Assembly: GCA_016200895.1 (NCBI GenBank)
Contig: JACQDX010000018.1
Location: 1-64,000, forward strand
Source of the DNA: Burkholderiales bacterium
GTDB taxonomy: Bacteria; Pseudomonadota; Gammaproteobacteria; Burkholderiales; Burkholderiaceae_D
DNA: 64,000 nucleotides
Direction of reading: 5' to 3'
Shown: piece by piece, positions 2,093-55,750 of the stretch
Numbering within the stretch: the stretch's first letter is position 1
Layout of the letters: each line of letters opens with the position of its first letter
The notes under the pieces: model-generated
The model's input: the letters and a program-made list of their open reading frames with translations, nothing else
What the model was told of the DNA's origin: nothing
The model's database searches: none
Made by a program: the position numbers and the translations under genes

Positions 2093-2452
2093 GGGGTCGA
2101 CCAGGTTTCGACAGGGGTTGCAAAGCAGCGCAGGGCATACCGAGGCCAGACTACCTCGTAAATACAATCTGAACTATATAACTGCAAACGATAACTCGTA
2201 CGCATTAGCCGCTTAATACCGGCTAACCTTACACCACTTCGTCCATAGGGTGGGCTGGCAACAGCAGTAAGGACATTCATATGGAATCGTCTTGAGCCGG
2301 GTTACTTGACTCTTGATTAAATAATAGGTAACTCGTCCTGCCGCAGCGTGTGCGTCCGCGTCGTCAGGATTAAATCAAATGGCAGCACTAAGTATGTAGA
2401 ACTGTCTGTAGAGTGCTTCTGGACGCGGGTTCGATTCCCGCCGACTCCACCA
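2093..2452 (+). ncRNA. ssrA: tmRNA (transfer-messenger RNA)
   Basis: Rescues stalled ribosomes by acting as alanyl-tRNA and then as mRNA for a degradation tag. The 5' GGGGUCG pairs perfectly (one G-U) with CGACUCC just before the 3' ACCA. The T arm GCGGGTTCGATTCCCGC is intact, and the resume codon GCA at 2184 opens the tag ANDNSYALAA ending at the TAA at 2214-2216. The A(L)AA-type tag end is recognised by ClpXP. One-piece tmRNA; CCA is encoded. The 3' ~29 nt serve as the left attachment site of the downstream prophage. Confidence 0.97.
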
Positions 2453-2453
2453 A
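2424..2453 (+). repeat. Left attachment site (attL core) inside the ssrA 3' end
   Basis: The 22 bp from 2424 to 2445 (T arm through the acceptor-stem start) recur exactly at 42837-42858 next to the integrase gene. After one missing T the repeat continues as CCACCAA. Tyrosine integrases often use the 3' end of tRNA/tmRNA genes and leave the gene intact, as seen here. Confidence 0.9.
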
Positions 2454-2463
2454 TATTTTGTTT

Positions 2464-2971
2464 AAAATCAAAGACTTAGACATTAATAATGTCATTAAAA
2501 TTGGGTGTTTTGGGGCTGTTTTAGCACCGGAATGACAACATAATGACAGCATCAAAAGGCGACTTAGGTCGCCTTTTTTGTTGCCCAAATCAGACGCGAT
2601 AGTGACCTTGATTTGCATAGGAATGGACGCCTGACCATCGATCATAGAATAGTTTTTTGCTGCGCAAATTTTGACGAAAAAAGGCATAAAAGTGCGCCCG
2701 TTCTAAAATAAGGTACCCCTCGGGAAAACCCTAACCTCACTAACATTTTTTCCCGACACCTTGGAAACCCTTGATACATATAGGTTTCAGCACTTCATCA
2801 AACCCTAACTAATCTACTAACCTTACCCTAATCAGGTTAGCTTTTAAATTCTAACTTCTCTAAAAAGTGACTTCCTTTAATATCAAGCACTTAGAAGAGT
2901 GTTAGGTTTTGGGTTAGTAGAGGTTAGGTTTTAACCCTAATATTGCAATTTCTTAAAAATCAAAGACTTAG
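2464..2971 (+). repeat. 16-bp direct repeat pair near the left phage end
   Basis: AAAATCAAAGACTTAG occurs exactly at 2464-2479 and 2956-2971. The first copy lies 12 bp from the attL end. Candidate arm-type integrase or Xis sites, or the footprint of an old left boundary; no function is shown. Confidence 0.7.
2554..2579 (+). terminator. Intrinsic terminator downstream of ssrA, phage-supplied
   Basis: Perfect 10-bp stem AAAAGGCGAC / GTCGCCTTTT with TTAG loop and T6. Integration displaced the native terminator to the far end, and this one, about 100 bp after ssrA, can replace it. Confidence 0.85.
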
Positions 2972-3018
2972 CAGGGAAAAACACTCGTTTTTCAACAGTG
3001 TTAGTGATGTTAGGGTTT
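2721..3018. repeat. Cluster of AACCCTAAC / GTTAGGGTT motifs in both orientations
   Basis: Non-coding stretch with repeated short motifs: AACCCTAAC at 2727 and 2801, ACCCTAAT at 2826 next to AGGTTAG at 2834, GTTAGG at 2901, GGGTTAG at 2911, GGTTAGG at 2922, AACCCTAA at 2933 and GTTAGGGTT at 3009. The first lies in the loop of an 8-bp inverted repeat (CGGGAAAA at 2721, TTTTCCCG at 2748). Iteron-like spacing suggests a protein-binding array, such as a replication origin or integrase arm sites. Nothing else is seen between 3019 and 3400 except repeated TTGCGTCA (about 3087 and 3097). Confidence 0.7.
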
Positions 3019-3424
3019 CCCCTTGCCCAAACCTAAAATCAACATTTCCTCGCCCTCCCCACTTCATTGCATTTGCAAAGAAATTTGCGTCAAATTGCGT
3101 CAGCTTTTGGGGGCATCCATGCGGCCGCAAACGTAAGCCGGGCTTATCTCTCAAGGGTGACGCATATTTGAGTCAAAAGCGACCCATTTAGCGGGCAGGC
3201 GTGGTGGGGGGATGTCTGCGCGCCAGGCCATCGCAAAGGAATGCTAACAAAAACCACCCGCCCCGTTCGGTGCCAAGGGGAAAGTGTCTTACAGCAGGAT
3301 TGGCTTTATTTCAACCTTTTAACAACAACGAGCAAATACTCAAATCATGTTCCAAACAAATCCCATATAATCATTAATAAGTAGCTATTTTTATAATTTA
3401 ATTATTTAAAGATTGGATACTAAA

Positions 3425-4120
3425 ATGACTCGCTTATGCACCATTGTGGTTTTGTTTCTTGCTTTTTTCAGCACCAATGCAAAAGCAGACGTGTTTGCTG
3501 GCTACGATGCATTTTGTGGTCTGCCGGTTGTTGTAGGAACAGATTCGATGATCGCATCAGCACGAACGGACCAACAAAATAGAAAATTTATACATATCGA
3601 TCCAGGAGCAATGAATAATTGGACTATGTCCCGAATGTTTACGTTGGCACATGAATGCGCTCACCATCTGCTTGGACATACTAACCCATTGGGACAGCAG
3701 CAAAGATATTATGGAGGTACTGCAACACAAGAGTTAGAAGCAGATTGCTGGGCTGCCAGAAAACTTAAAGAAATAGGCCACGAATCTGATTTAAAGGCAA
3801 CTATTTTGCAAAGAGCGAACGCTGGCCATTTCGCTGACCCGGGTTATCCAACTGGAGAGGAACGTGCGCAGAATATGTTGTCATGTATAGGGGAATCCAG
3901 TCCTGAAAGGACAAGACCAGCTCAATGTAGAAATATACAAGTTCCTGAAAGTTATACGTCCTACGATGTAGTTATGCAGACAAATCAAGTACCTTACCAA
4001 CATTGTGGCTGCAACAATTTTGGGCAATGCGGATGCCAGCATCAATTAGACCTGATTCAAGTTCCAGTTCAAGTTCCTGTCCAGCGTAGTCGAATGGTAA
4101 CTAGACAGGTGTGCGACTAA
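3425..4120 (+). CDS. Secreted HExxH zinc metallopeptidase-like protein (phage cargo)
   Basis: 231 residues from the ATG at 3425; a TTG four codons upstream is less likely because the signal peptide starts neatly at MTRLCTIVVLFLAFF and ends near AKA-D. The motif AHECAHHLLGH (HExxH followed by H) and a downstream ELEADCWAA glutamate form a gluzincin-type zinc site. The C-terminal third is rich in Cys, Gln, Pro and Val with CGCNNFGQCGCQ, suggesting disulfides. It sits alone, in the opposite direction to portal and terminase, in an AT-rich segment, so it looks like a lysogenic conversion gene acting in the periplasm or outside. Substrate unknown. Confidence 0.75.
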   Translation: MTRLCTIVVLFLAFFSTNAKADVFAGYDAFCGLPVVVGTDSMIASARTDQQNRKFIHIDPGAMNNWTMSRMFTLAHECAHHLLGHTNPLGQQQRYYGGTATQELEADCWAARKLKEIGHESDLKATILQRANAGHFADPGYPTGEERAQNMLSCIGESSPERTRPAQCRNIQVPESYTSYDVVMQTNQVPYQHCGCNNFGQCGCQHQLDLIQVPVQVPVQRSRMVTRQVCD

Positions 4121-4155
4121 TTTTATAAAAACTATAGTATTGAAAATTTCAATAC

Positions 4156-4368
4156 CTATTTTTTGCCAACCCTAACCCGCGCCGCTCTCTCCCTCTCAAA
4201 ATCATCCCGGCAATCCCGATCACAAAACAGCGTATCGGGTGCCACCGGCTCATCACAAAACCGACATTGCCCGGTCGCCTTCATGCCTTGCTTGCCACGC
4301 GCATGCGCAATAGCCGAAGCAATAAACGTCTCGATATTCTTATCTGACATATCCGCAAAATCACTCAT
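4156..4368 (-). CDS. Small zinc-ribbon protein next to portal
   Basis: 70 residues. A CRFC...CDRDC pattern gives a four-cysteine zinc site resembling treble-clef/DUF2116-like or DksA-like short phage proteins; the tail is basic (RERAARVRVGKK). It overlaps the portal gene stop by 4 bp, so it is translated in the same late transcript. A nucleic-acid-binding role is plausible but unproven. Confidence 0.65.
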   Translation of the reverse strand: MSDFADMSDKNIETFIASAIAHARGKQGMKATGQCRFCDEPVAPDTLFCDRDCRDDFERERAARVRVGKK

Positions 4369-5441
4369 TTCACCGCCCCTCTCTCATCACCCAAGGAATA
4401 AGGCGTGAAGCGGATGACTTCCTCGCCCAGCCATTCGTTACACTCCCTAAACCGCGCCTGCAGTGGTTCCAGTTCGTGCATAGAAAACACTTTGGCCGCT
4501 TTCTCCACATCCCCGAAACCGCCCGTATTGTTCGGCACCAGGCCCAGCAACTGGGGCGGTACCCGGTGCGCGGCCAGCATGTCGTCGCGAGTAACGTTCT
4601 TGATGCTGAAAAACTCATCCTTTGCCGCCACCTCAGACACCGGCAAAATCTGGATGCCGTCTTTCTTGCCGTTGGGCGCATACATGAACACATTGCGGAA
4701 ATTGCCCGGCCCCTTGCTGTCGCGCAGCGCCTGGCGCATGTTGTCGACGTCACTTTGATTCTGTGCCGGGTCAGTCATATACAAGATGAACCCAGCATGT
4801 GAGCCATTCTTGTAATACTTGCGCCTGAACAGCGTCGCCGCCTCATTCAGCCAGGCAGAATGCAAGGCGCTCAAATACTCAGGCAGGCCGTACACCTCCT
4901 GATTAATGTCCGGTTCCATCAAATGGAAAATCGCCCCAGACTCAAACACATGATCTTCCTGCCAGCCACGCACAAAGGCGTATTGGTTCAAGTCATCACT
5001 ACACCGGCGCATGTACTTGGCAAGCGCAGGTTCAAGCTGCAAAGACTTGCCGGTGCGGCTTTTACGGTTTTCCAGATAAGCATTGCCAAACACCAAAAAA
5101 TCCAGCGCAAACCGGCTAAACGCCTCGCGTGACAGCAAGGCATGCGGCACAAACGTGGCCGCCAGCAGGTTGCGCTTCACATAGATCGCCGTTGAATGGT
5201 GCACACTGGCCCTGAAAGACTTCGCCAGGCCGTCCCAACTGATAGGCGGCTCGTAATACCGCCCATTCGTCCAGCACTCGATATAGTCCAGAATTTCAGA
5301 CCGGTCGAATACCGGCGTCGGGTCGCCAAAGCTGAATACCTCAGCGCCCGGCGGCGGTGCCAGTACTGCTGAACTGTTAGTCTGTTCCGGCGCGGCACTA
5401 TGCGTTATAACTTCCTGCCCGCGCCTCTTCTTTCTCGTCAT
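4365..5441 (-). CDS. Q: Portal protein (P2 gpQ family)
   Basis: 358 residues, close to P2 gpQ (344). Forms the dodecameric portal through which DNA enters and leaves the capsid. Family features seen: WDGLAKSFRASVHHSTAI, the AFSRFALDFLVFGNAYLE region, LPEYLSALHSAWLNEAATLFRRKYYKNGSHAGFI, and VPPQLLGLVPNNTGGFGDVEKAA near the C-terminus, the typical PBSX/P2 portal ending. Its start overlaps the end of the terminase gene by 4 bp, giving the P2 Q-P pair transcribed leftward. Confidence 0.95.
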   Translation of the reverse strand: MTRKKRRGQEVITHSAAPEQTNSSAVLAPPPGAEVFSFGDPTPVFDRSEILDYIECWTNGRYYEPPISWDGLAKSFRASVHHSTAIYVKRNLLAATFVPHALLSREAFSRFALDFLVFGNAYLENRKSRTGKSLQLEPALAKYMRRCSDDLNQYAFVRGWQEDHVFESGAIFHLMEPDINQEVYGLPEYLSALHSAWLNEAATLFRRKYYKNGSHAGFILYMTDPAQNQSDVDNMRQALRDSKGPGNFRNVFMYAPNGKKDGIQILPVSEVAAKDEFFSIKNVTRDDMLAAHRVPPQLLGLVPNNTGGFGDVEKAAKVFSMHELEPLQARFRECNEWLGEEVIRFTPYSLGDERGAVK

Positions 5442-7267
5442 GAATACACCTCCATAAATGATTGATTGCTGCTGACGCCACCGTCCAAGGGTTCATGGTC
5501 CAAGGCGTGCATACAGGCCCAGGCAAGATCCGCATGTCCGGTTTCTTCGCTACGGTCTGCCACATAGGTCACATGCTGGCCGCTGGCCGTCAGGGTCTTT
5601 TTGATCGTCATGAACGCTTGCGCCAGATCCGTGGCCCCAGCGTCAAACTCCAGACGGCCCTTGCTGATCACATCGCGGGCCTTAATGACCATGCGGCTCT
5701 TCACAGCCGGGTCATAATTGATCTTGGTCACATTGGGGTAGAAGTTCTTCACCAGCTGGTGCACACCCTCCCCCATGCCAGTGGCATCAATGCCAATAAA
5801 GGCAACGTGATAGCGAATCGTGCTTTGCCTGATTTGTTCAGCCTGGGCCGCAAAGTCCATGCCCCTGAACTGCATACGCTCCAACACCCGGAACTTGCCG
5901 CCAGGCGTGCGCGGTGGCGCAAGGATCACTAGCCCGGCACTGTCACCAGTGAACGCCGGGTCGTACCCTATCCAGACCGGGTTATCACCATAAGGCCGCG
6001 TGGTGAAGGGTTTAAAGTCCGTCCAATCTACCCAGGCATCCACCATGCACTTTTGCAGCTCCTGCAAAGGGAAAACAGACGCCGTGTCATCAATAAACTG
6101 ACACATCAACAGGTTTTCAAACTGGTCCGGGCTGTACTCATAGGTGCGCAGCTCGTCAATATCGAACAAGTCACAGCCACCAGCCTGGGCGTCCATGATG
6201 GTGACGATCTGCCGCCACATCTTGTCTTCACCCGTAAAGCCAAACGCAAGCCGCTTGTGGCTGATATCAATATTCACCTGGTCTTTTTTAGGCCGCCGCT
6301 TGTTGAACAGCTCCCCTGTCCAGAATGGGTATGCCTCATGCGTAATGCTCGATGGCGTAGAAAAGTAAGTCTTACGCCACTGCTTATGCAGCGCCATGCC
6401 TGACGCCACCTTGTTCAACTCCTGAAACTTATGCGTCCAGAAAAATTCATCAAAATAGAAATTGCCGTGATAACCCTGGGCTGTCCTGGCATTGGTACCC
6501 AAGAAGTAAAGATGCGCGCCATTAGGTAAAACGATAGGATCACCGGCCAGCTCGATGCCCGCCGCCTCTTTGGCAAACTGGATAATGTATTGTTTGAATA
6601 CGTGCGCCTGGGCCTTCGATGCAGACAGAAAAATCTGATTGCGCCCCGTTTCCATGGCATCAGCTAAGGCCTCCCGCGCAAAGTACCAGGTAGCGCCAAT
6701 CTGGCGCGATTTGAGAATCACCCGCGTGCGCTCATGTCCATTGCGCAGCCATACCTTTTGATAGTCAAACAGCGAATCGCGAAAAGCCTCTAACAACTGG
6801 TCGCGCTGGTCATCGCTGTAATCGTTGCGTGTCGGCTTTTTCTTTGGCCCTGCATTGCGATTTGCCAACTTAGGATTCAGATCCACTTCATTGCCGCCCG
6901 GTGCCTCGTAGCGCCGCACCCGCGCCGTCTGCACGGCCTGGCGCATCAGCAAATCAATTTCCTTGAAGTCGCCCCCTGTCTTAACTTCCTTGGCAATCAA
7001 TTGAACCAGGCGCGTTTCAAGACTGGCTTCAATCTTTTCTATGAACGGGGTTTCGTCCCATTTCTCCCGGTCGCACCAGCTCTGCACGGTGGTGCGTTTG
7101 ATATCCAAATGCTTGGCAATGGAAGAAATGCGCCAGCCCTGCCAGTACAAGGCCTGGGCATGTTTCTTCAGGTCGTAAGTAGGCGCGACAGTCGCGCCAT
7201 CAGTTGGCGCTTCTGTGTCGTTTTCAGGGAGGGTTTCAGACGTATTTTCGTCGGCAAGATCAATCAT
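5438..7267 (-). CDS. P: Terminase large (ATPase) subunit, P2 gpP family
   Basis: 609 residues (P2 gpP 590). DNA packaging motor. An N-terminal helix-turn-helix (ALYWQGWRISSIAKHLDIKR, about 40-60) is typical of gpP. The P-loop variant SRQIGATW lies near residue 190 and the Walker B-like FYFDEFFW near 270. The C-terminal nuclease/RNase H-like part starts at IGYDPAFTGDSAGLVIL and includes FIGIDATGMGEGV. The start lies 56 bp from the centre of a 21-bp dyad at 7313-7333, the candidate late promoter shared with gene O. Confidence 0.95.
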   Translation of the reverse strand: MIDLADENTSETLPENDTEAPTDGATVAPTYDLKKHAQALYWQGWRISSIAKHLDIKRTTVQSWCDREKWDETPFIEKIEASLETRLVQLIAKEVKTGGDFKEIDLLMRQAVQTARVRRYEAPGGNEVDLNPKLANRNAGPKKKPTRNDYSDDQRDQLLEAFRDSLFDYQKVWLRNGHERTRVILKSRQIGATWYFAREALADAMETGRNQIFLSASKAQAHVFKQYIIQFAKEAAGIELAGDPIVLPNGAHLYFLGTNARTAQGYHGNFYFDEFFWTHKFQELNKVASGMALHKQWRKTYFSTPSSITHEAYPFWTGELFNKRRPKKDQVNIDISHKRLAFGFTGEDKMWRQIVTIMDAQAGGCDLFDIDELRTYEYSPDQFENLLMCQFIDDTASVFPLQELQKCMVDAWVDWTDFKPFTTRPYGDNPVWIGYDPAFTGDSAGLVILAPPRTPGGKFRVLERMQFRGMDFAAQAEQIRQSTIRYHVAFIGIDATGMGEGVHQLVKNFYPNVTKINYDPAVKSRMVIKARDVISKGRLEFDAGATDLAQAFMTIKKTLTASGQHVTYVADRSEETGHADLAWACMHALDHEPLDGGVSSNQSFMEVYS

Positions 7268-7312
7268 GCCGTCAGATTACGGGCATCGCGGGCGCGAAGG
7301 CACAGGCAGCAA

Positions 7313-7333
7313 GTTGTTATAAATCTTATCAAC
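7313..7333. promoter_or_regulatory. Candidate late-activator (Ogr-like) box between P and O
   Basis: 21-bp dyad GTTG-N13-CAAC with internal TTAT/CTTAT elements, in the divergent P-O promoter region. Two other dyads of the same length and design occur at 16050-16070 and 17186-17206. P2 late promoters carry a dyad bound by the zinc-finger activator Ogr; an Ogr-like gene is at 37061. Confidence 0.7.
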
Positions 7334-7428
7334 TCACTGCTGATTGAAGCAAAAACTCACTAGGCAGACTATGCCAACTGCACAGCCAGAAATCAATTCT
7401 TGAAACCCACAACCTACACCACCAAACC

Positions 7429-8262
7429 ATGAGCACAAAAAAATTTACCTCTAAATTTTTCCGCGTCGCAGTTGAAGGCGCAACCACCGACGGCCGCAAA
7501 ATTGATCGTAGCTGGATCGAGCAAATGGCTAAAAACTTTGATCCCAAGACCTACGGCGCACGCATCTGGTTAGAACACATACGCGGTACCGTCCCAGACA
7601 GCCCCTTCAAAGCCTACGGCGATGTAACAGCAGTCAAGGCCGAAGAAGTCACCATAGACGGCAGCAAGAAGCTAGCCCTGTATGCCCAAATCGAACCTAC
7701 CCCTGATCTGGTGGCCCTGTCCAAAGCCAAACAGAAGATCTACACCAGCGTAGAGATTAACGACAAATTCGCCGACACCGGCGAAGCCTATCTTGTTGGC
7801 CTGGGCATTACCGACAGCCCCGCCAGCCTGGGTACCGAAGTATTGAGTTTTGCGGCCAGCAATCCCAACGCCAATCCCTTTGCAGGCCGCAAGACTAACC
7901 CGGCACACCTCTTCTCTGCCGCCGTCGAAGTGAATCTTGAATTTGCAGAAGTCAACACCGAAACCACCAGCCTGGCTGCAAAAGTCAAAGACCTGCTCAA
8001 AGTCTTCAATAGCAAAAAAGGCGGTGACGATGCCCGCTTTGATGATCTCGGCCAGGCAATTGAAACAGTGGTGGAACACACCGCAGACCAGGAACAGCGC
8101 TTTAGTGAATCAAACAAACGCATTTCCGAACTGGAAAAGAATCTCAAAACCGTCACAGACAATTTCAACAGCCTGAAAACCCAGCTCGACAAAGAACCCG
8201 GCAACCAGACCACCCGCCCAACAGCCACAGGCGGCAACGGTACAGAACAAACCGACTGCTAA
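7429..8262 (+). CDS. O: Capsid scaffolding protein/protease, P2 gpO family
   Basis: 277 residues (P2 gpO 284). The N-terminal half is a serine protease that cleaves scaffold, capsid and portal; candidate catalytic residues Asp21 (TTDGR), His50 (WLEHIRG) and Ser107 (YTSVEIN) sit at the same spacing as in P2. The C-terminal half is a helical scaffold ending in a coiled coil (TADQEQRFSESNKRISELEK). First gene of the rightward O-N-M-L capsid operon. Confidence 0.94.
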   Translation: MSTKKFTSKFFRVAVEGATTDGRKIDRSWIEQMAKNFDPKTYGARIWLEHIRGTVPDSPFKAYGDVTAVKAEEVTIDGSKKLALYAQIEPTPDLVALSKAKQKIYTSVEINDKFADTGEAYLVGLGITDSPASLGTEVLSFAASNPNANPFAGRKTNPAHLFSAAVEVNLEFAEVNTETTSLAAKVKDLLKVFNSKKGGDDARFDDLGQAIETVVEHTADQEQRFSESNKRISELEKNLKTVTDNFNSLKTQLDKEPGNQTTRPTATGGNGTEQTDC

Positions 8263-8316
8263 ACCCGGCAAGCCACAGCAAACAACACCAACACACAAAA
8301 CACGGAGTAAGCACGC

Positions 8317-9321: not shown

Positions 9322-9323
9322 TC

Positions 9324-10061
9324 ATGTCACACACCAGCCTGGCCATGCGCCACTTTGCCCGTATCACCGCCGAGCGGGCCAATGCACAAAGTAACCAAGG
9401 CGGCGAACTCACCGGCAACGCTTACGAGCTGATGCTTGCCAAGCTTATCAACGACAAGCAAAGGCTCAAGGCCATCAAGTCTATCCAGCGAAAAATCGAA
9501 CTCAAGCGCGAAATTCTGCCTGAATACGATGACTGGATAAACGGCGCACTGGAGAGCGGCAACGGCGCACAAGACCAGGTATTAACCACAGTCCTGGTCT
9601 GGCACATAGACGCTGGCACCTATGCCCGCGCCCTGGACATCGCGCAATACTGTCTGGTTCATAACCTGAGTCTGCCAGATCAATACGCCCGTGATGTGTC
9701 CACCCTGCTGCTTGATGAAATCCCCGGCGCATACCTCGAAGGCCGATTTGAAAGCCCAGCCGCAGCCGTGGAAACGCTCAGAGCCGTGCAACTGCTGACC
9801 GTCAATGCTGATGTACCAGACCAGGCCAGTGCCAAGCTGTACAAGGCGCTGGGCTATGCACAGATAGGCAAGATGGGCAATGGCGACATTGACTTTGAAC
9901 AGTTGCCAGAAGAAGCCGCCAGCAAGGCATTGGACAACCTGCGCAAAGCACTGGACCTCTTCCAACACATAGGCGTCAAAAAAGATATTGAACGGCTGGA
10001 ACGCCGTTTAAAGAAAACTGCAGACGATGAAACGGCCACCAGCCCGCCACCACCTGCATAA
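9324..10061 (+). CDS. M: Terminase small (endonuclease) subunit, P2 gpM family
   Basis: 245 residues (P2 gpM 247). Recognises and cuts cos DNA together with gpP. The stretch KAIKSIQRKIELKREILPEYDDWINGAL and VLVWHIDAGTYARALDIAQY are gpM hallmarks. It begins 2 bp after gene N. The C-terminal ~60 residues are charged and helical, ending in a Ser/Pro tail. Confidence 0.93.
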   Translation: MSHTSLAMRHFARITAERANAQSNQGGELTGNAYELMLAKLINDKQRLKAIKSIQRKIELKREILPEYDDWINGALESGNGAQDQVLTTVLVWHIDAGTYARALDIAQYCLVHNLSLPDQYARDVSTLLLDEIPGAYLEGRFESPAAAVETLRAVQLLTVNADVPDQASAKLYKALGYAQIGKMGNGDIDFEQLPEEAASKALDNLRKALDLFQHIGVKKDIERLERRLKKTADDETATSPPPPA

Positions 10062-10168
10062 CAGGCACCCTCCGGCGCCGGGCGGCGTGGGCCGATCAGG
10101 GATTTCTAGCCATTTACCCTGTGACAGCCCACCCACCGCCCCCTTGAAACCTTTCACCGTCCAATGCC

Positions 10169-10660: not shown

Positions 10661-10662
10661 CC

Positions 10663-10866: not shown

Positions 10867-10868
10867 CC

Positions 10869-11584: not shown

Positions 11585-11597
11585 GGAAGCCACCGTC

Positions 11598-43045: not shown

Positions 43046-43051
43046 AAATGC

Positions 43052-46081: not shown

Positions 46082-46083
46082 GC

Positions 46084-46758: not shown

Positions 46759-49700
46759 TGTGATGCAATCAGATACTGCAAATACTGAATTCACGGCAGA
46801 GGTCGAGTTGTCAGGCTTTCGCCTGCACAGGCTGGAAGTATTGAATTGGGGTACGTTTGACAGCAAGGTCTGGACATTACATCTGGATGGCAAAAATGGC
46901 TTGCTTACAGGCGACATAGGTTCAGGCAAATCCACCCTGGTAGATGCAATCACCACCTTGCTGGTGCCTGCACAAAAGGCGGCTTACAACAAGGCGGCTG
47001 GTGCCGACAGTCGCGAAAGAAATTTGCGCTCTTATGTGCTGGGTCATTTCAAATCAGAACGCAATGAAGTCAGTGGCGTTGCCAAGCCAGTATCCCTGCG
47101 CAAGGACAATAGTTATTCGGTCATATTGGCTGTGTTTCGCAATGCCGGTTTTGACCAGACTGTGACGCTGGCGCAGATGTTCTGGATGAAAGAGCCGCAT
47201 GGGCAACCTGCGCGTTTCTTTGTCGGCGCAGAAAAAGATCTTTCTATCGCCACTGACTTTGCCAATTTTGATGCAGATATCAATAAATTGCGCAAACGGC
47301 TGCGTACTTCTGGCGCGGATGTAGAGGAAACTTTCCCTAAATATGCGGCATGGTTCAGGCGACGTTTTGGCATCGAAAATGATCAGGCGCTGGAATTGTT
47401 TCACCAGACTGTATCAATGAAGTCCGTCGGCAATCTGACCGATTTTGTTCGTACTCACATGCTGGAACCCTTTGATGTATCCAGCCGCACCGAAGCACTG
47501 ATTTCTCACTTCGAAGATTTAAACCGCGCCCACGAAGCCGTATTGAAGGCAAAGCGCCAGACCACTATGCTGACGCCGCTAGTTGCCGATTATGAATTGC
47601 ACATCATCAAGGCTACAGAAATCGAACAACTGAAGCAATGCCGTGAAGGCTTGCCCGGTCATTTTGCAGGATTGAAATTACACTTGCTGACCCAACGCCT
47701 GAGTCATTTAGGAGACGAATGGCTACAACATAATGCGCAGATCAGGCAGTTGGAGTTACATCGTGAAAAACAAGGCTTTGAGATTGATGACATCAAACTT
47801 GCCATTGCGAATAATGGTGGTGACCGCCTGGCCAAGCTAGAAGCAGAGATAAGAGAAAAAGAAATTTTGCGTGAAAATCGCAAGTTAAAGGCTGACCGTT
47901 ACGGCCAGTTGCTAGCCGATCTTGGTGAAAAGACGGCAGACAATCAGCAAGATTTTCTGACCAAGAACCAATCCCTGCGAATATTGACTACTGACTTGAG
48001 AACTGACGAAAGTCGCTTGCAAAACACTTATACCGAACATGGTGTCACATTCAGGCAAGCGAAAATCGAAAGAGACGAGTTACAGACAGAAATCACCAGC
48101 CTGAAGCGCCGCCCAAATAATATAGACAGCAAGCAAATCAAGATACGCGAACTTTTATGCAGTGCGCTTGACATAGCAGAAGATGAAATGCCATTTTGCG
48201 GTGAATTGATACAAATCCGGGAAACTGAGCAAGATTGGGAAGGTGCGGCAGAGCGGCTCATGCGTGGCTTTGCGCTGTCCATGCTAGTGCCGGAAAAATA
48301 CTACCAGCAGGTTGCAGAATGGGTGAACAGTAATCATCTATATGGGCGCTTTGTATATTTCCGTGTGCACCAGCAGAGACGTGGCAATTTACCTAGCCCT
48401 CATGCCGACTCTCTGGTCCGAAAACTCGCCATCAAGCCAGATTCTTCATTTTATGAATGGCTGGAACGTGAACTGCTGCAACGCTTCGATGTCGCCTGTT
48501 GTGCAAGTCAGGCACAATTTCGCCAAGAAGCCAGAGCGATCACCAAGGCAGGACAAATCAAAGATTCGAACGGGCGCCATGAAAAAGATGATAGCCACAG
48601 TATCAATGACCGCAGCCGTTATGTATTAGGCTGGTCTAATGCACCAAAAATTGCAGCGCTGGAAAAGAACGGTCGCCAACTGGAAGCTGACATGCTGCGC
48701 ATTGTGAAGTTGATGAATGAGGCCAAGGCATTGCAAGACGCGGCAAAGGCCAAAATTAGTGTACTGGACAAGCTGGAGGAATTCAGGGACTTTGAAGAAA
48801 TCAACTGGGCCAGCCTGGTCACAGGCATTGCCAATTTACAGCTTGAACGGCAAAGACTGGAAGCTGCTTCTGATGTCTTGAAAACGCTGAACCAGGATTT
48901 GCAAACAGCAAGACAAGCAATGAATGAGCTGGAAAATCAGTTGGATGATCTCAAACGCAAGCGAGCCATCAACGAAAATAACAGAGAGCATGCTGAAAGC
49001 TTGCAGACATTAGCGCTGGCAGTCATACAACGGCAACAGGCTATAGCCGATATAACGCCGCTCCTGGAAAAATTGCGTAACCAGGCTTTGGGCAAGCACA
49101 CACTCACCGTCGAATCATGCGATCCGCAAGAGCAGGAGGTTCGCAGTTTCATCCAGAAAAATGTAGAGACAGAAGACAACAAGCTGAAGAGGTTAGCTAA
49201 CGGTATCAGTGAAGCCATGTTCAAGTTCAAGACAGAATTCAAGCTTGAGACCGCTGACTTTGATACTCATGTCGATGCCGGGTTTGAATACAAAAAACTG
49301 CTGGAACAATTGAATCGCGACGACTTGCCACGCTTTGAAGCTCGCTTCAAAGAAATGTTAAACGTCAATACCATCAATGAGTTGGCCAATTTCAATGCGC
49401 AATTGGCGCGGGAACGCGAAACCATCAAAGAGCGCATCGCACATATCAATCAGTCACTGATACAGATTGACTACAACCCTGGCCGCTACATCATTGTGGA
49501 ATCACAAATCAGCCCGGATGCTGATATACGCGACTTCCAGGCGGATTTGCGGGCTTGTACCGAGGGAACATTAAGCGGTTCGGACGAGGCGCTGTATTCA
49601 GAGACTAAATTCTTGCAAGTGAAAACCATCATAGACCGTTTTCGCGGGCGTGAGGGCTTGTCTGAACAAGACAAGCGCTGGACTGGCAAGGTAACAGATG

Positions 49701-50140
49701 TGCGCAACTGGTTCCTGTTTGCTGCTAGTGAAAGGTGGCGCAGCAACGATGGTGAGTATGAACATTATTCAGATTCTGGCGGCAAGTCAGGCGGTCAAAA
49801 AGAAAAACTGGCTTACACCATTTTAGCCGCCAGCCTCGCTTATCAATTTGGCCTGGGTTGGGACAGGCAACGTTCACGTTCATTCCGCTTTGTGGTGATT
49901 GACGAGGCGTTTGGACGCGGCTCTGACGAGTCAGCACAATATGGCCTGAATTTGTTCCAGCAATTGAATCTGCAATTACTGATCGTCACGCCTTTGCAAA
50001 AAATTCATATTATTGAACCTTATGTATCCAGTGTAGGTTTTGTGCATAACGAAGATGGTCAGGCATCCAAATTACGTAATTTGTCGATAGAAGAATATCG
50101 TGAACAGAAATTGCATATGCTGGTGGATGCGCTGACATGA
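46751..50140 (+). CDS. jetC: Wadjet JetC (MukB/MksB-like SMC ATPase)
   Basis: 1129 residues from the ATG at 46751, overlapping the jetB stop; 46748 is an equal alternative. Walker A GDIGSGKSTLVDAITTLLVP near residue 54; long coiled coils about 290-480 and 640-960 around a hinge; the ABC signature SGGKSGGQKEKLAYTILAAS and Walker B FRFVVIDEAFGRGSDES near the C-terminus. It powers DNA loop extrusion; the complex senses small circular DNA and brings in JetD. All ATPase motifs are intact. Confidence 0.95.
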   Translation: MNDVMQSDTANTEFTAEVELSGFRLHRLEVLNWGTFDSKVWTLHLDGKNGLLTGDIGSGKSTLVDAITTLLVPAQKAAYNKAAGADSRERNLRSYVLGHFKSERNEVSGVAKPVSLRKDNSYSVILAVFRNAGFDQTVTLAQMFWMKEPHGQPARFFVGAEKDLSIATDFANFDADINKLRKRLRTSGADVEETFPKYAAWFRRRFGIENDQALELFHQTVSMKSVGNLTDFVRTHMLEPFDVSSRTEALISHFEDLNRAHEAVLKAKRQTTMLTPLVADYELHIIKATEIEQLKQCREGLPGHFAGLKLHLLTQRLSHLGDEWLQHNAQIRQLELHREKQGFEIDDIKLAIANNGGDRLAKLEAEIREKEILRENRKLKADRYGQLLADLGEKTADNQQDFLTKNQSLRILTTDLRTDESRLQNTYTEHGVTFRQAKIERDELQTEITSLKRRPNNIDSKQIKIRELLCSALDIAEDEMPFCGELIQIRETEQDWEGAAERLMRGFALSMLVPEKYYQQVAEWVNSNHLYGRFVYFRVHQQRRGNLPSPHADSLVRKLAIKPDSSFYEWLERELLQRFDVACCASQAQFRQEARAITKAGQIKDSNGRHEKDDSHSINDRSRYVLGWSNAPKIAALEKNGRQLEADMLRIVKLMNEAKALQDAAKAKISVLDKLEEFRDFEEINWASLVTGIANLQLERQRLEAASDVLKTLNQDLQTARQAMNELENQLDDLKRKRAINENNREHAESLQTLALAVIQRQQAIADITPLLEKLRNQALGKHTLTVESCDPQEQEVRSFIQKNVETEDNKLKRLANGISEAMFKFKTEFKLETADFDTHVDAGFEYKKLLEQLNRDDLPRFEARFKEMLNVNTINELANFNAQLARERETIKERIAHINQSLIQIDYNPGRYIIVESQISPDADIRDFQADLRACTEGTLSGSDEALYSETKFLQVKTIIDRFRGREGLSEQDKRWTGKVTDVRNWFLFAASERWRSNDGEYEHYSDSGGKSGGQKEKLAYTILAASLAYQFGLGWDRQRSRSFRFVVIDEAFGRGSDESAQYGLNLFQQLNLQLLIVTPLQKIHIIEPYVSSVGFVHNEDGQASKLRNLSIEEYREQKLHMLVDALT

Positions 50141-51339
50141 GCTGGACTGGGCCATCTGAACTAAAAGCCCAGTTGCAACGCCTATGGGACCGGGGTGATT
50201 TATTGCGTATGCAGTTGGAATCTGAAGCCCACTTCCCGCTACGCCTGAGCTTGAAAATACCAACGTCCAGCGATATCAGTGATCGCTTTGATACAGTACG
50301 AAAATGGATTGCAGAACTGGCCTCAGCGCCACATATCCGTATCGAATGGCGCGAAGTACGCCACCGCGTACATGGTTTGCAACGCCTGCCTGATCAAGCC
50401 TGGGTTGATGGCCTGGATGCGGCTTTAGCGCTGATAGGCAGGAAACGCGAAGCTGCGCGTTTTCAATTGATGTTTGATGACACCCTGCATAAATTCCCAG
50501 TCTTGCAAGCATGGTTAAAAAAGCGGCCTGTGCAGGCGCTGGACTTGCATGACCGGTGGCCACAATTATTGGCGATAGTCACATGGTTATGCACACATCC
50601 ACGCCCCGCAATTTATCTGCGCCAGGTTGACATTGCTGGCATACACAGCAAATTCATTGAGGCCAATCGTGCTGTGCTGTCAGAATTGCTGGATCTGGCA
50701 TTAAGCCGAGACGCCATCGATGAGCGTTACACGGGAAGCAGCCAATTCGCGGCGCGTTATGGATTTTTGGACAAGCCACTGCGCTTGCGCTTCAGGGTAC
50801 TTGACGAGCGTATGCAAATTTTGGCTGGCATCAGCCACCCAGATATCACCCTTGATGCTGACAGCTTTGCCCATCTTGACCTGTCTGGCAAGACTGTTTT
50901 TATTACCGAGAATGAAACCAATTTTCTGGCTTTTCCTAAAGTCGCCAATGCCATCGTTATTTTTGGCTCGGGTTATGGTTGGGATGCACTGACGTCCGCT
51001 CAATGGTTGAATAACTGTGCAATTCATTATTGGGGGGACATTGATACGCATGGCTTTGCGATTCTCAACCAGTTGCGCCAACATTTCCCGCATGTCACCT
51101 CATTTTTAATGGACAGGGAAAGTTTGCTGAGGCATGAAATACATTGGGGTGAGGAAGGTAGCCCAGTCACACATGATCTGAATTCTCTTAACACTGAAGA
51201 ACGTGCGCTATTCGAAGACTTGCGCGAGCAACGCTTAGGGAAAAATCTTAGGCTGGAACAAGAGCGCATACAATTTGAGTACGTAATGAATGAAGTGCGG
51301 CGGATTATGAATACGCCACAGATATTGCATCAAGCTTGA
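50137..51339 (+). CDS. jetD: Wadjet JetD (Toprim nuclease, DUF3322-DUF2220)
   Basis: 400 residues, 4-bp overlap with jetC. N-terminal DUF3322 (WTGPSELKAQLQRLWDRGDL, then RIEWREVRHRVHGLQRLPD), C-terminal DUF2220/Toprim with VFITENETNFLAFP (Glu near 259) and YWGDIDTHGFAILNQLR (Asp-x-Asp near 302). These acidic residues bind the metal ions for plasmid cleavage in known Wadjet systems. The site looks intact. Confidence 0.95.
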   Translation: MSWTGPSELKAQLQRLWDRGDLLRMQLESEAHFPLRLSLKIPTSSDISDRFDTVRKWIAELASAPHIRIEWREVRHRVHGLQRLPDQAWVDGLDAALALIGRKREAARFQLMFDDTLHKFPVLQAWLKKRPVQALDLHDRWPQLLAIVTWLCTHPRPAIYLRQVDIAGIHSKFIEANRAVLSELLDLALSRDAIDERYTGSSQFAARYGFLDKPLRLRFRVLDERMQILAGISHPDITLDADSFAHLDLSGKTVFITENETNFLAFPKVANAIVIFGSGYGWDALTSAQWLNNCAIHYWGDIDTHGFAILNQLRQHFPHVTSFLMDRESLLRHEIHWGEEGSPVTHDLNSLNTEERALFEDLREQRLGKNLRLEQERIQFEYVMNEVRRIMNTPQILHQA

Positions 51340-51351: not shown

Positions 51352-51960
51352 ATGACCACAGAACTTGAATTTTATCTCGCCGCCTGGATCAGCTACTGCA
51401 TCTTGTGTGCTTGGCTCTATTTATCTGACCGCCAGTCTTTTCCCATTCAAGGCTACAAATCATTTCTGTTCGTACCCTGGAAGCTGTTTACTTTCGGTAT
51501 TGCCGCAATTGGGATTACTGTCGTCGCACCTTATACCGCTGACCCGACCTGGGACTATTTTGATGCGGCCATGATGTCGGTGCTCACATTCTTGACTGCG
51601 CCGTGGGCGACGGGGATTACCTACCTGGGAATAAGAGGCAAAGCCAGCGTCCGACATATACTGGTCGCGATTGGCGTATGGTTGTTTTCTGCGAGCTGGT
51701 GTTATGACCTGTATCTGTTGATCAGGGACGGTCATTATCCAATTACCTGGGAGGCAAATATTTATGCATCTTCAGTGCTTTATCTGAGCGCGGGTTTGTT
51801 GTGGAATCTCGAATACAAAACTGGCAGAGGTGTGACATTTTCTTTTCTAGAGCCAGGATTCCCTAATCGCCCGCAGCAAGCAGATTTTGCCAGGATCGCC
51901 TTGTTTGGTCTGCCTTTCATGCTCCTTGCTATCTGTTGCATCGGATATTTTCTTGTCTAA
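51352..51960 (+). CDS. Multi-pass membrane protein following jetD
   Basis: 202 residues with about six TM segments (e.g. FYLAAWISYCILCAWLYLSD, KLFTFGIAAIGITVVAPYTA, SVRHILVAIGVWLFSASWCY, LFGLPFMLLAICCIGYFLV). Starts 12 bp after the jetD stop on the same strand, so it is probably in the operon. Not recognised as a known Wadjet component. It could be an accessory gene or an independent passenger of the island. Confidence 0.7.
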   Translation: MTTELEFYLAAWISYCILCAWLYLSDRQSFPIQGYKSFLFVPWKLFTFGIAAIGITVVAPYTADPTWDYFDAAMMSVLTFLTAPWATGITYLGIRGKASVRHILVAIGVWLFSASWCYDLYLLIRDGHYPITWEANIYASSVLYLSAGLLWNLEYKTGRGVTFSFLEPGFPNRPQQADFARIALFGLPFMLLAICCIGYFLV

Positions 51961-52055: not shown

Positions 52056-52717
52056 TTAGTCCCTATCCGGCGCCCCAAGAGGAAATAACTGCCGGTAGGG
52101 CCGCGCTTCTTCCACTGCCCGTGCGAATGATGGGCGGGACAGCAAGCGGCTGCAGTAGGTGCGCAATCTTGGGTATTTTTCTGCGATCTGCTGAGTCCAG
52201 TCTGCATATAAAAGTGAAAGCTGCTGCAGCACAGTCCGCCAGTGTGAAACTTTCACCGGTTGCCCATGTTGCTATGTCAGGGTGGCTCTCCAGCCACGCA
52301 TAGGCGAGGTCTAGCTTGCTGGCGGTGTGGGCCAGCCCTTCCTGTCTTTTTACGGTATCGCCTGTCAATGCTGCGCCGACCGCATGTTGTACCGGGGTCA
52401 TGATGTGCAGATCGAAGAAGCTGTCAAGGAAGCGTATGTCCAGTGCCTGCATGACATCTGTGGGCAAGAGACGCACTGACCCCGGGTGGGCTAGTTGCAA
52501 GTACTCGATGATGATGCTGGTCTCGACGACATTGCGCTCACCATCGACCAGCAGGGGGAAATTTGCCCAGCGGCCAGCGCTGATGCCATTCCGCTGCGTA
52601 TTCTGGAGTATCTGGTCCAATGCAGTGGAATTCGAAGGCAGTGTCATTCTCATGCAGGGCGATGAGCACCTTCTGGGTGTAGGAAGAGAAGGGGTGACCG
52701 TATAGTGTGAGTGACAT
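52056..52717 (-). pseudogene. Glutathione S-transferase gene broken by two frameshifts
   Basis: Pieces in three frames add up to a normal ~220-residue GST. N-terminal thioredoxin-like domain starts MSLTLYGHPFSSYTQKVLIA (52717) and runs to GKFP; at a G5 run (52554-52558) the frame changes and continues FPLLVDGERNVVETSIIIEY (Glu-Thr-Ser glutathione motif). A second change near 52216-52235, in FTLADCAAAA, moves to LLYADWTQQIAEKYPRLRTY and ends RQLFPLGAPDRD. One extra base at the G run would explain the first shift. Decayed gene unless the shifts are sequencing errors. Confidence 0.85.
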
Positions 52718-53118
52718 GGCCAGTGCCTTAAAAAAGTGCTCGTTGATGATGTTTGCATTGCCCGAGAATTTATTTCGCGTTGTAGCCGTACACATGAGCA
52801 CTCGGCCCACACTCCGCAATTACAGGGCTGGCCCGAATCTGCGCGGTCACACATATTGAATCAAAAACTTCCATTCGGCGACAAGCACAATTGTATTATT
52901 TGCCGATTATGTCAAAAATGCAACAACTTGTAAAATTAGAACGATCTGGAAACGACTTGCTATATAACAACGTGGGCGACAAGTGAAGTCCTGGCAAGCA
53001 TACGCTACCCGTCAGGGACCTTCATGACATCAGCGCAAAGACGATTACACGCTCGCCCTTCAGCGCCAAAGAATGGCTATACGCTTCATTTTCATGAAAA
53101 TAACAGGGAGTTAACACT

Positions 53119-55650
53119 ATGCATTTACATGCGCATATCGAAAGAATCTTTAAAGCCGTACCGGCTTTTTGCTCTTACCTGCCTGTCTTTGTGTTGACGG
53201 CCTGCGGTTCAGCCGCTGATGCTGGCGCTGGCGACAAGGCTCAGACCAAACTGACCACACCAGCGCCGTCATCACGCATCATTGCGGTGACAACTTATGA
53301 TGGCAACCTCTATAAGGCGAGATTTAATCAAAACTGTACACCAAACCAGGTAGCTGATTTTATTTCCAACCTGCCCCAGCTTTATGGAAATGTGTATCCT
53401 GAAGATTGTGGGATATCAAAAACCAGGGCGCCCATATTGCAGTGGCCTGAAGGCTATCTACCGGTGAATACAGACATTGCAGAACCCTGGAGTATCAATA
53501 TTATCAAGGACGGCCAGCCCTATCTGTCGGTTACCAGCAAGTATCCGCAATATCAGTTTCCAAGTACCTTGCCTATCGGTAGTTATGAATGGACTGTCAG
53601 CTACAAAAGCAAGAACGGTACGACACCACAGAGCCAGACAAGGCGTTTCTATGTCGATGCCACTGCGATTGATGTGGCCAGTTATAACCCCACACAAATC
53701 ATCAATGCGGCAAAATCAGCGATCAGGCCGCGCATGTTTCCCAGAGGCTTGAGTAAGGAAACCATGCTGGCCAATATCACGCAAAATGCCAGCGCGCCAT
53801 TTGCAGTCCTGAAAGCAAAAGCCAAAACCATACAGGACAAGGCCATTGGTGCTGAACCACAAAAACGGCCTGTCAATACGCCGAACCCGACTGACTATTC
53901 TATCTGGCTGGTTTCATTGAACAGCATGGCCTCGGCAGCGGCCAGTGATATGAATTACCTTGGTTATGTATCAAAGCTGACCAATGATGCCAGCATGGCC
54001 GCCGCTGGCAAGGCACGCCTGCTGGCATTGGCAGACTGGGACCCGGTTAATGGTGTCAGCAACTACACGTTCCAGGATCAGGCGGCACGTCAGGTGCTGT
54101 TGGCGCTGGCGAAAGGCTATGATTATTTCTATGATGATCTGAGTGCGGTAGAAAAAAGCAAGGTCATCAGCGTCATCAAAACAAGAACCGAGCAAATGAT
54201 GCCGCTGATCGCCAGTCATCATTGGCACAAAAAAGATTCACACGGTGTGACCAATGTGGGTTTCCTGCTGAATGTATTATTGCTGCTGGCAGGCGACCAG
54301 AACTTCCCGGAAGCGGAACAATATCTGCGTGATACCTATACGACATTCCTGGTCAGCAGTACTGCTCATGGTGGTGATGACGGCGCGTTTCAAAACGGTA
54401 CAGGTTATGGCTGGTATGTCGCCACCTTGCTCGAGACCATGATCAGCATCAAATCTGTCACGGGCTACGATATCAGCAAGCATCCCTACTACTCCAAGTA
54501 CGTGGATTACCTGATGGCATTCACTGCCCCATTGTACAGACAGTTGATGACGCCATTTGGTGATGATCACATCTACACCTATGATTACCAGGCCTATTCC
54601 GTCGACACCTTACAGCCATTTGCCTTGCTGACGCAAAATGCGGCGCATGAATGGTACTTCCGTGCGAACAAGGATAATCTCACCAACCAAAACACCCGTC
54701 CCGTCTATTATTTCAATTTGGTGGCCATGGGTGCCAAGCCCGTCACGCCGGTTGCGCCAACGCAGGACAACTGGTTCTTCCCGAACGCAGGGCTGGCCTC
54801 GCTGACCAGCAAGTTCACGGATGCAAACGGGTCCAGCGTCGCCTTCCGATCCAGTGAGTGGGGTGCCTACAACCATTCGTATGCCGACCAGAACAGTTTT
54901 ACATTGGTTTCCAAAGGCAGGGACATGCTCATCAGCAGTGGCTATTATTATGTTTATGATTCAGAACACCACAGGCAAACCCGCTCAACCAGGTCACAGA
55001 ATGCCCTGACCTTTGATGGCGGGATAGGCCAGTCAGAATCTCCGTCTACGGTGTCGCCACCCAGGCCAACCGTTCCGGTGTATACATCTGATGCCGCAGG
55101 CCAGCTGTATAACGGTGGTGAAAGCAATGGCATTGCCATCGTCACTGGCAACGCAAGCAAAGCCTACCGCCGCCAGACTGCCGGCGGCACACCAGCCACG
55201 TGGGTGCCCTTGCTTGATAATGCAGTGCGTTCCATCGCCTACTTCAAGGACGAGCGCATTATCGTCATTTATGACTGGGCAAACAGTTCAACAGCGCGCA
55301 CCTGGGAATTGAACTTCCATGCCTTGCAGCCGTTTAATCTTGAGACCTCCGGCATGGCCAGAGTAGTCAATGCCCCATCGTCTATCTGTATCACACACCA
55401 TAACTTCCCTTCGGTAATGACCACGACTGATCAGGTTGATATACCACCAGACAAGGCATCACCCAGCCAGTATCACCTGCGTTCAACGGCAACAGCCGCA
55501 AGCAAGGAAATGACCGCCATCACAGTAATACGCGAAGATTGCGCCACCACACAGGTTGACATCGGTGTGAAGGGTACGCTTGCCCAAGTCATGATAGGCA
55601 ACAAGGGCGTGGACTTTAACAAGAAGGTCGTTTCCATCCTCACGAAATAG
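53119..55650 (+). CDS. Lipoprotein polysaccharide lyase-like protein (DUF4962/heparinase II-III type)
   Basis: 843 residues. The lipobox LTAC in PVFVLTACGSAADAG predicts an outer membrane lipoprotein, though with a longish n-region. N-terminal beta domain (about 60-185) with ILQWPEGYLPV and DGQPYLSVTSKYPQYQFPST is DUF4962-like; the middle is an alpha/alpha toroid (QDQAARQVLLALAKGYDYFY, SHGVTNVGFLLNVLLLLAGD); the C-terminal part is a beta sheet domain of heparinase II/III type (SSVAFRSSEWGAYNHSYADQ, candidate catalytic Tyr/His, and FKDERIIVIYDWA). It probably cleaves uronic-acid polysaccharides such as alginate or glycosaminoglycans. It ends ~20 bp before an ssrA fragment. Confidence 0.8.
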   Translation: MHLHAHIERIFKAVPAFCSYLPVFVLTACGSAADAGAGDKAQTKLTTPAPSSRIIAVTTYDGNLYKARFNQNCTPNQVADFISNLPQLYGNVYPEDCGISKTRAPILQWPEGYLPVNTDIAEPWSINIIKDGQPYLSVTSKYPQYQFPSTLPIGSYEWTVSYKSKNGTTPQSQTRRFYVDATAIDVASYNPTQIINAAKSAIRPRMFPRGLSKETMLANITQNASAPFAVLKAKAKTIQDKAIGAEPQKRPVNTPNPTDYSIWLVSLNSMASAAASDMNYLGYVSKLTNDASMAAAGKARLLALADWDPVNGVSNYTFQDQAARQVLLALAKGYDYFYDDLSAVEKSKVISVIKTRTEQMMPLIASHHWHKKDSHGVTNVGFLLNVLLLLAGDQNFPEAEQYLRDTYTTFLVSSTAHGGDDGAFQNGTGYGWYVATLLETMISIKSVTGYDISKHPYYSKYVDYLMAFTAPLYRQLMTPFGDDHIYTYDYQAYSVDTLQPFALLTQNAAHEWYFRANKDNLTNQNTRPVYYFNLVAMGAKPVTPVAPTQDNWFFPNAGLASLTSKFTDANGSSVAFRSSEWGAYNHSYADQNSFTLVSKGRDMLISSGYYYVYDSEHHRQTRSTRSQNALTFDGGIGQSESPSTVSPPRPTVPVYTSDAAGQLYNGGESNGIAIVTGNASKAYRRQTAGGTPATWVPLLDNAVRSIAYFKDERIIVIYDWANSSTARTWELNFHALQPFNLETSGMARVVNAPSSICITHHNFPSVMTTTDQVDIPPDKASPSQYHLRSTATAASKEMTAITVIREDCATTQVDIGVKGTLAQVMIGNKGVDFNKKVVSILTK

Positions 55651-55669
55651 ATCATTGACCTGCCCTAAT

Positions 55670-55750
55670 GTACGTGTTTGCGTCATCAGGATCACATCAA
55701 ACGGCAGCACTAAGTATGTAGAACTGTCAGTAAAGTGCTTCTGGGCCGGG
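55670..55750 (+). pseudogene. Diverged ssrA fragment (tmRNA remnant)
   Basis: About 80 nt align with ssrA 2349-2430: identical GGCAGCACTAAGTATGTAGA continuing to CTGTC, then TAAAGTGCTTCTGG against TAGAGTGCTTCTGG, with scattered changes upstream (CGTCATCAGGAT vs CGTCGTCAGGAT). The T arm, acceptor stem and CCA are lost. It marks an old ssrA-directed junction; no resume codon or tag is present, so it cannot work as tmRNA. Confidence 0.88.

Follow-up and report, generated by a model that had tools for sequence, protein, structure and literature searches.

The analysed stretch (hereafter the window) comprises 64,000 nt of contig JACQDX010000018.1 from Burkholderiales bacterium assembly GCA_016200895.1, and carries the transfer-messenger RNA (tmRNA) gene ssrA together with three further ssrA-derived pieces. 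Between ssrA and a RoxA-like cytochrome c gene lie a P2-type prophage, small hairpin repeats modelled on the end of ssrA, adjacent jetA, jetB, jetC and jetD genes of a Wadjet type I system, a heparinase-type lyase gene and a relic of ssrA (Table 1). A reading made from the sequence alone had taken these pieces for the traces of an older Wadjet/lyase island with a decayed outer attachment (att) site and of a later integration of the prophage at the same site. The four pieces are real (chance expectations 0.00–0.01 for the patterns tested), and their separate origins are well supported. We consider it probable that the interval is an ssrA integration hotspot holding pieces of separate origin, and that its repeats are ssrA-borne relatives of the rtT repeat of Escherichia coli.

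Table 1. Features of the interval between ssrA and the RoxA-like gene, with the matches or occurrences that define them.
Feature	Position	Strand	Basis or occurrence
ssrA (tmRNA), intact, left hotspot border	2093..2452	+	ARAGORN; RF00023 210.2 bits
Prophage attL core within ssrA	2424..2445	+	22 bp identical to 42837-42858
P2-type prophage (portal, terminase, scaffold, capsid, baseplate, sheath, tape measure)	2453..42836	.	PHROGs
Tyrosine integrase adjoining attR	41642..42823	+	PF00589 2.6e-17; phrog_1 2.6e-63
attR, reads GACCCACCA; tail copy from prophage integration	42837..42861	+	
Resident ssrA-tail unit 1, ~179-bp repeat	42862..43044	+	corresponding units without prophage: G027, G034, G063
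Unit 1 inverted T-arm, partly decayed	~42918-42933		
Unit 1 GGACGCGGG	42935-42943		
Three-hairpin core (model R1)	42943..43024	+	R1 110.5 bits, by construction; covariation
Unit 1 ssrA tail	43024-43044		
Degenerate unit 2: terminator, inverted arm, first hairpin; tailless	43045..43190	+	R1 39.6 bits at 43123-43189
jetA (Wadjet type I)	44606..46081	+	PDLC00457 7.6e-221; PF11855
jetB	46078..46758	+	PDLC00474 2e-95
jetC (reading frame as listed; true start probably later)	46658..50140	+	PDLC00512 E=0
jetD	50137..51339	+	PDLC00530 3.5e-150; PF09983
202-aa hotspot backbone reading frame	51352..51960	+	DNA matches G027, G034, G063, G065; pieces in G004
Weakly GST-like gene	52063..52854	-	PF13410 below cut-off; DNA matches G027, G063, G065
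Heparinase-type lyase	53119..55650	+	PF07940 1.7e-14, PF16332 7.9e-21; G065 same place, 81% aa identity
Drifted relic of ssrA 3' domain	55659..55750	+	alignment to ssrA; as such in no other searched genus genome
E2 hairpin fused to relic	55744..55817	+	77-79% to hairpin in ssrA units of G034, G063
DUF2471 gene, strain-specific in genus	55865..56182	-	PF10616 3.5e-8; 1/43 genomes
RoxA-like cytochrome c gene, right hotspot border	56468..58504	+	PF21419

Both ARAGORN and RF00023 placed the end of an intact ssrA at 2452, and tail copies at 42837 and 43024 were recovered as exact matches of 22 bp and 20 nt, which confirms the places given in the sequence-only reading. The copy at 42837, CGCGGGTTCGATTCCCGCCGAC, is identical over 22 bp to ssrA 2424-2445. 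With an integrase at one end, identical att cores at both ends and structural genes matching PHROGs, the proposed P2-type prophage at the ssrA tail was borne out, and the 42837 piece is the attR left by its recombination with that tail. The last 20 nt of ssrA also recur exactly at 43025-43044 (chance expectation 0.01), and a 26-nt pattern of the full tail, allowing up to three mismatches, matched only ssrA itself. The tail at 43024 is not a scar of the present prophage: it ends a resident unit that is older, since corresponding units stand behind ssrA in the prophage-free relatives G027, G034 and G063.

Read in the direction away from ssrA, a unit consists of a terminator hairpin, an inverted copy of the T-arm, GGACGCGGG, the hairpins P3, P4 and P5, and then CGATTCCCGCCGNCTCCACCA. 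Its direct tail is an exact ssrA tail with CCA, and the hairpins sit where the T-loop should be. The window's two units stand in reverse order relative to those of G027 (judged by eye from their terminators), so that the arrays seem to rearrange. We examined covariation in ten units, namely the window's, two from G027, one from G063 and six from loci of the genome collection. The proposed structure paired 93.1% of cells, against 84.4% in shuffled alignments and 33-40% in slid controls, and held 12 double-change pairs against 5.5 in shuffles; none of 500 shuffles reached either value. RNAalifold alone gave 13 double-change pairs, with a 2x2 GA/GA step remaining at the base of P3. Variation in the inverted arm and in P2 consists of G-U changes or mispairs and never involves both partners of a pair, so that neither has covariation support. 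Rfam searches by E-value of window positions 42400-43800 and of locus L105 gave only matches below family cut-offs, none of them to RtT. A permuted tmRNA was considered on a weak RF04321 match (17.9 bits, cut-off 47) and rejected, as was a group I intron inserted in the T-loop, the insert being only ~80 nt.

The layouts of relatives revealed how the rest of the interval was filled. Forty-three genomes of the genus were searchable, and the locus was compared in seven large ones, six of which aligned beyond ssrA; the seventh, G066, aligned at ssrA only (20 kb compared). Behind ssrA, G027 carries two tail units, the 202-aa reading frame, the GST-like gene and the RoxA-like gene, and G034 carries one composite unit, other reading frames, the 202-aa reading frame and the RoxA-like gene; neither has jet, lyase or prophage. 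G063 has two units (the second tailless), jetABCD, the 202-aa reading frame, the GST-like gene and the RoxA-like gene, with no lyase, prophage or relic fragment, and G065 has ~13 kb of other DNA, the 202-aa reading frame, the GST-like gene, the lyase and the RoxA-like gene, and lacks both jet and fragment. The order in G004 is ssrA, another island, a decayed tailed unit, a match to the prophage left end (78%), jetABCD, foreign DNA and the RoxA-like gene. In G019, ssrA is followed by a left prophage end of the window's type (~95% over roughly 950 bp, counting ssrA), then by other genes and the RoxA-like gene. The conserved right flank begins at the RoxA-like gene in G004, G019, G027, G034 and G065, and from 57260 in G063. 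These six layouts make the stretch from ssrA to the RoxA-like gene a hotspot where jet, lyase and prophage are gained and lost independently of one another; jetABCD, the lyase and the DUF2471 gene are separate insertions.

In the G004 hotspot, pieces of the 202-aa reading frame recur at three sites, as though they marked insertion borders; the frame had no Pfam, PADLOC or NCBIfam match. The lyase was present in five of the 43 genomes, the G019 copy lying on another contig. The first reading frame of the island directly behind ssrA in G004 (L038) resembles, by eye, a type I restriction methylase subunit. In the more distant G031 (L044), an integrase-like match, an exact copy of the ssrA tail (at 4159, 3.8 kb behind its ssrA) and a jetA-like match (69%; at 7680, 7.3 kb behind) follow one another in a build-up that is similar to the window's and separate from it.

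The outermost piece, reported as 80 nt of the ssrA 3' domain at 55670, is real and longer, at ~92 nt (~55659-55750). Across 55646-55750, 85 of 107 alignment columns are identical to the resident ssrA, with an exact core of 25 nt at 55704-55728 (chance 0.00). The start was set at ~55659 because G065 has a similar lyase 3' flank (GAAATAGAC..ATTGA), resembling the first ~13 nt of this alignment, and has no ssrA piece there. The relic stops ~25 nt short of the ssrA end and is thus not an ordinary att duplicate. Its best match is an ssrA stretch common to G000, G004, G019, G027 and G034, the window's own clade, which argues for local drift. Of the two sources once offered for its divergence, drift therefore stands and another lineage is not supported, since alignment to ssrA genes led to no distant lineage. 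The relic sequence matched in 34 other genomes of the 43, once in each and in the ssrA-like part only, with eight lacking a match; 33 of these matches lie inside called or aligned ssrA and the remaining one (G029) at a contig start. Relic and flank together were found in no other genus genome (43 searched), the 55640-55760 piece had no match in the plasmid collection, and window positions 55500-56500 had none in Rfam by E-value. The E2 hairpin matched only the G034 and G063 units among the loci compared and is single-copy in its own genome; a hammerhead ribozyme was rejected for it by eye, core bases of that ribozyme being missing. At the junction of relic and E2 lies the 9-bp GGACGCGGG common to ssrA and units, which makes recombination there a plausible origin of the fusion. 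We suggest that the relic derives from the 3' domain of the clade's ssrA, as a copy that is now dead and drifted, and that it became joined to a unit-type hairpin, perhaps in this way.

A single older Wadjet/lyase island bounded by this piece, with the prophage arriving later, is therefore very unlikely. It would account for all pieces lying on the same strand downstream of ssrA and for the fragment standing beyond both jet and lyase. Against it, G063 and G065 carry jet and lyase apart and without the fragment, the 202-aa reading frame and GST-like gene that separate the two in the window occur in G027, which has neither, and the fragment lacks the very ssrA end that an att duplicate would retain. 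A genome with jet and lyase and no fragment was not found, none of the six aligned relatives having both and jet not having been searched genome-wide. Of the proposed successive integrations at one site, repeated insertion behind ssrA was thus upheld by the six relatives, and the two-island history with its joint jet/lyase island was not.

Units of this kind were also detected outside the genus, and double ssrA tails of their spacing in other phyla as well. A double-tail pattern (two ssrA tails 145-175 bp apart), which selects loci for good tails and whose spacing partly fixes unit length in the resulting set, found 22 stretches in the genome collection. Eleven were labelled Oxalobacteraceae or other Betaproteobacteria, and the other 11 came from Actinomycetota, Clostridia, Geothermobacter, Acidobacteriota, gammaproteobacteria and an unclassified bin. 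ARAGORN called a tmRNA just upstream in 17 of the 22, four had the ssrA 3' part at the locus edge and L106 had none. At cut-off, Rfam matched only tmRNA and SRP in 20 of these loci, and viral contigs contained no strict double-tail pattern. R2, a model of the whole unit, includes the ssrA tail and so favours ssrA-linked matches, and both R1 and R2 were built partly on loci that they find. R2 matched 16 of 300 genomes of the order, the window's and 15 others. In 11 of these 15 the unit stands directly behind ssrA (ten with an ARAGORN tmRNA at 38-60 nt, and L156 with the ssrA 3' end at the contig start); two stand behind an att-like tail (L146 and L152, by eye) and one behind a terminator only. 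The last, in L157, lies among successive tRNA-Phe 5' copies, its hairpins occupying the D-loop of one that is dead. There (L157:1501-1995) the 5' copies precede the intact gene, and the first holds the hairpin family between GG and GAGC. Tandem copies were seen in G338 (five at a 186-bp period, 6.5 kb from the unit behind its ssrA) and in G277 (two at 186 bp).

Unit tails and arms were compared with the ssrA of their own genome. Among 29 units, many from loci chosen for a good tail and three (L149, L154, G000) with tail strings 1-3 nt out of register, the direct tail fitted its own ssrA best in 20, tied in four and was worse in five (L144, L147, L150, L155, G063). In ten units from genomes that lack the commonest T-arm, the left arm fitted its own ssrA above any differing one in eight, the exceptions being L095 (a tie) and L103. 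The inverted arm, which is not part of the pattern, was significant at p<=0.05 in 14 of 21 pattern loci (L108, the same unit as L092, was left out), and likewise in the rtT of E. coli. In seven of 11 R2 loci, the T-arm 5' half reproduces a 9-mer of the unit's own ssrA exactly.

The hairpins themselves are a dispersed palindromic-repeat family in the genus. R1, the hairpin model with no ssrA parts, found copies in at least 29 of the 43 genomes and at least 28 copies in the window's genome; both figures are minimum values, with 107 of 1241 candidates scored in that genome. The ssrA copies score highest with R1, which was built on them. When 19 dispersed copies were tested for outer inverted repeats, the copy's own flanks fitted best in seven (mean 14.8 vs 8.3), a mixed result. 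At L120, L121, L124, L126, L127 and L134, dispersed hairpins are centred in long inverted repeats with the core AAAATGG/CCCATTTTT.

The same arrangement of parts is found behind tRNA genes. rtT is a transcribed and processed RNA. Behind E. coli tyrV we found GGGGAAGGAT (inverted tail), AAGGTTCGA (T-arm 5' half, exact, 83 nt behind tyrV), hairpins and ATCCTTCCCCCACCACCA (tail with CCA, whose end lies 178 nt behind tyrV); the annotated small RNA rttR ends at this CCA, and RF00391 (RtT RNA) matches three stretches behind tyrV in the DNA compared. Among 369 genomes of the class, 65 matched RF00391 at E<=0.001 and 23 above cut-off, some in tandem. Twenty of the RtT loci were examined, of which 18 have an upstream tRNA and two (L178, L187) were dropped. 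The 18 lie directly behind tRNA-Gln, -Tyr or -Ser (gap -13 to 79 nt). In 17 of them the end of the unit is a repeat of the upstream tRNA's tail (mean score 17.9 vs 8.2 for other tRNA types), the inverted arm reaches p<=0.01 in 16, and the T-arm 8-mer of the locus's own tRNA recurs exactly in 14. Several RtT matches at different places per genome, some in tandem of three, were observed in G460, G353 and G561.

The shared architecture of rtT and its relatives behind these tRNA genes suggests that the window's repeats are members, borne by ssrA, of an rtT-like class. Inverted T-arm, T-arm 5' half, hairpin insert and T-arm 3' half follow one another in both unit A1 and E. coli, and the window's unit belongs behind an RNA gene, with a copy of that gene's tail as its end, here ssrA rather than a tRNA gene; the prophage now stands between the two in the window, and nothing does in G027. 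By this analogy of architecture and place, the ssrA units likely work like rtT. They are not members of RF00391 itself, which had no match at E<=0.001 in the window's own genome.

Several observations weigh against this kinship or leave parts of the account less firm. RF00391 gave no match even at E<=1 in window positions 42400-43800 or in L105, so the kinship rests on architecture, and the T-arm 5' half of E. coli reached only p 0.23, tested with a misplaced 9-mer. The T-arm 5' half was significant in only three of 21 pattern loci (L089, L092, L105), which makes the layout less complete outside Burkholderiales. The left arm was strictly best with its own ssrA in just eight of 29 units, tied in 15 and was worse in six, the window's among them. 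In the ten aligned units the inverted arm pairs with the tail without double changes, and it was not significant in seven of the 21 pattern loci (L093, L096, L097, L099, L104, L109, L110), so this arm may be a copy in decay and not one under selection. A terminator stands between ssrA and the units. No R1 hairpin was found near the genome's three Y1 transposase genes, all of which lie at contig ends and thus lack one flank each. The path by which the 55659 relic arose is conjecture.

Anatomy, distribution, covariation, tail matching and the layouts of relatives are observed; as to the order of events, the mode of spread and function or its lack, we infer the following, which we prefer to its rivals. 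A unit would be a set of palindromic-repeat-type hairpins lodged in a duplicated T-arm, with tails kept matched to the neighbouring gene by recombinase use and unequal crossing-over; recombination at the tails would then yield both tandem arrays and repeated island borders. The duplication might instead be a plain, local one of the ssrA end in which such repeats lodged by chance, forming no class at all. The dispersed hairpin core and the decay of left arms would suit that idea, which we judge improbable because, in many genomes, the same order of parts recurs behind ssrA and behind tRNA genes of three kinds. That the unit is a small mobile DNA cassette whose att sites are of the tail type, or a recombination site formed by a folded single strand, moved by integrases in trans, has a somewhat better chance and is a live alternative, if still doubtful: direct tail repeats flank the units, prophage attR lies directly before unit 1, G338 has its tandem arrays at 186 bp with a 6.5-kb gap from its ssrA unit, and the L146 and L152 units follow att-like tails. 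No circular form was seen, however, viral contigs held none by the strict pattern, and arrays would also be expected from unequal crossing-over. An origin of the unit as part of an integrase-bearing element was rejected, as reading frames behind units shared no gene (by eye, 17 loci, two of them with too little DNA to show any gene).

The unit might also be a small RNA ending in CCA, whose arm is antisense to the 3' end of its neighbour and which regulates that neighbour or competes for processing enzymes. Compensatory changes, the invariant GA/GA step, the complementarity of the left arm to the local T-arm and the end of rttR at the tail CCA all fit such an RNA. It too is a live alternative, which we nonetheless think unlikely, given the intervening terminator, the decay of the arm in the window's clade, the presence of the unit in only 15 of 299 other genomes of the order at the threshold used, and the dispersal of its hairpins as a repeat in the genus. 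More tentatively, though as a serious possibility, rtT may be one branch of a bacteria-wide class of tail mimics, hairpin cassettes in a duplicated T-arm immediately downstream of tRNA or tmRNA genes that carry the 3' end of their own neighbour inverted and direct, and that would be either RNAs acting on the neighbour or mini-elements on its attachment site that shape island borders.

A tail copy downstream of ssrA or of a tRNA gene is usually read as an island border. One of the two here is the end of a hairpin repeat older than the prophage, and to treat it as a border is to postulate an island that is not there. Should the link to rtT be true, the orphan E. coli repeat would stand for a whole class, with numerous natural representatives behind different RNA genes, and the function of that class could be tested by comparison and by deletion in a laboratory strain. 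We found no earlier description of ssrA-tail units in the literature searched, which covered only a minority of subscription papers, and we do not claim that they are unpublished.

The prophage is an ordinary member of the P2-type (Peduovirus-like) prophages, with like structural genes. A 5-kb query of its tail genes showed 66-68% DNA identity over 40-45% to Burkholderia phages such as KL3 and matched 188 phage records at 60-80% identity, none covering >80% of the query. An A+T-rich patch of the prophage (GC ~0.43) contains a 594-aa reading frame (13116-14900) without a Pfam, PHROGs, PADLOC or NCBIfam match; the frame adjoins a D12-class adenine methyltransferase gene (14968-15729) and is possible cargo.

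Island integration is a known source of tmRNA gene fragments (PMC4131195), and this explanation fits the attR here; the 55659 relic, in contrast, retains an internal part of the 3' domain without its terminus, just the opposite of what an att duplicate keeps. Similarly, the ssrA-associated genomic islands of Dehalococcoides (PMC3146451) are tandem insertions behind ssrA that are each bordered by an ssrA-tail repeat, a layout matching prophage plus attR. Where those repeats are island borders, the 43024 tail is the end of a 179-bp hairpin repeat that encloses no island; the words "inverted" and "hairpin" are absent from that paper's main text. The hairpins also invite comparison with the GTAG-tagged palindromic repeats (REPs) associated with RAYT transposases (PMC3733652). 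Both are covarying hairpins dispersed in the genome, and several dispersed copies here start with GGTGTAGC, which is GTAG-like, whereas the unit copies read GGTGA or GGCGA without a tag, contain several hairpins and are tied to a tRNA or tmRNA tail. Compared with rtT, the ssrA units have ssrA as neighbour, a terminator before each unit, other hairpin sequence and no RF00391 match. What they have in common with the E. coli tyrT-tyrV repeat is an inverted T-arm copy, the T-arm 5' half, a cluster of hairpins and an exact tail with CCA, along with a GAACG or GAGCG step, seen by eye, between the first two hairpins of ssrA units and RtT alike.

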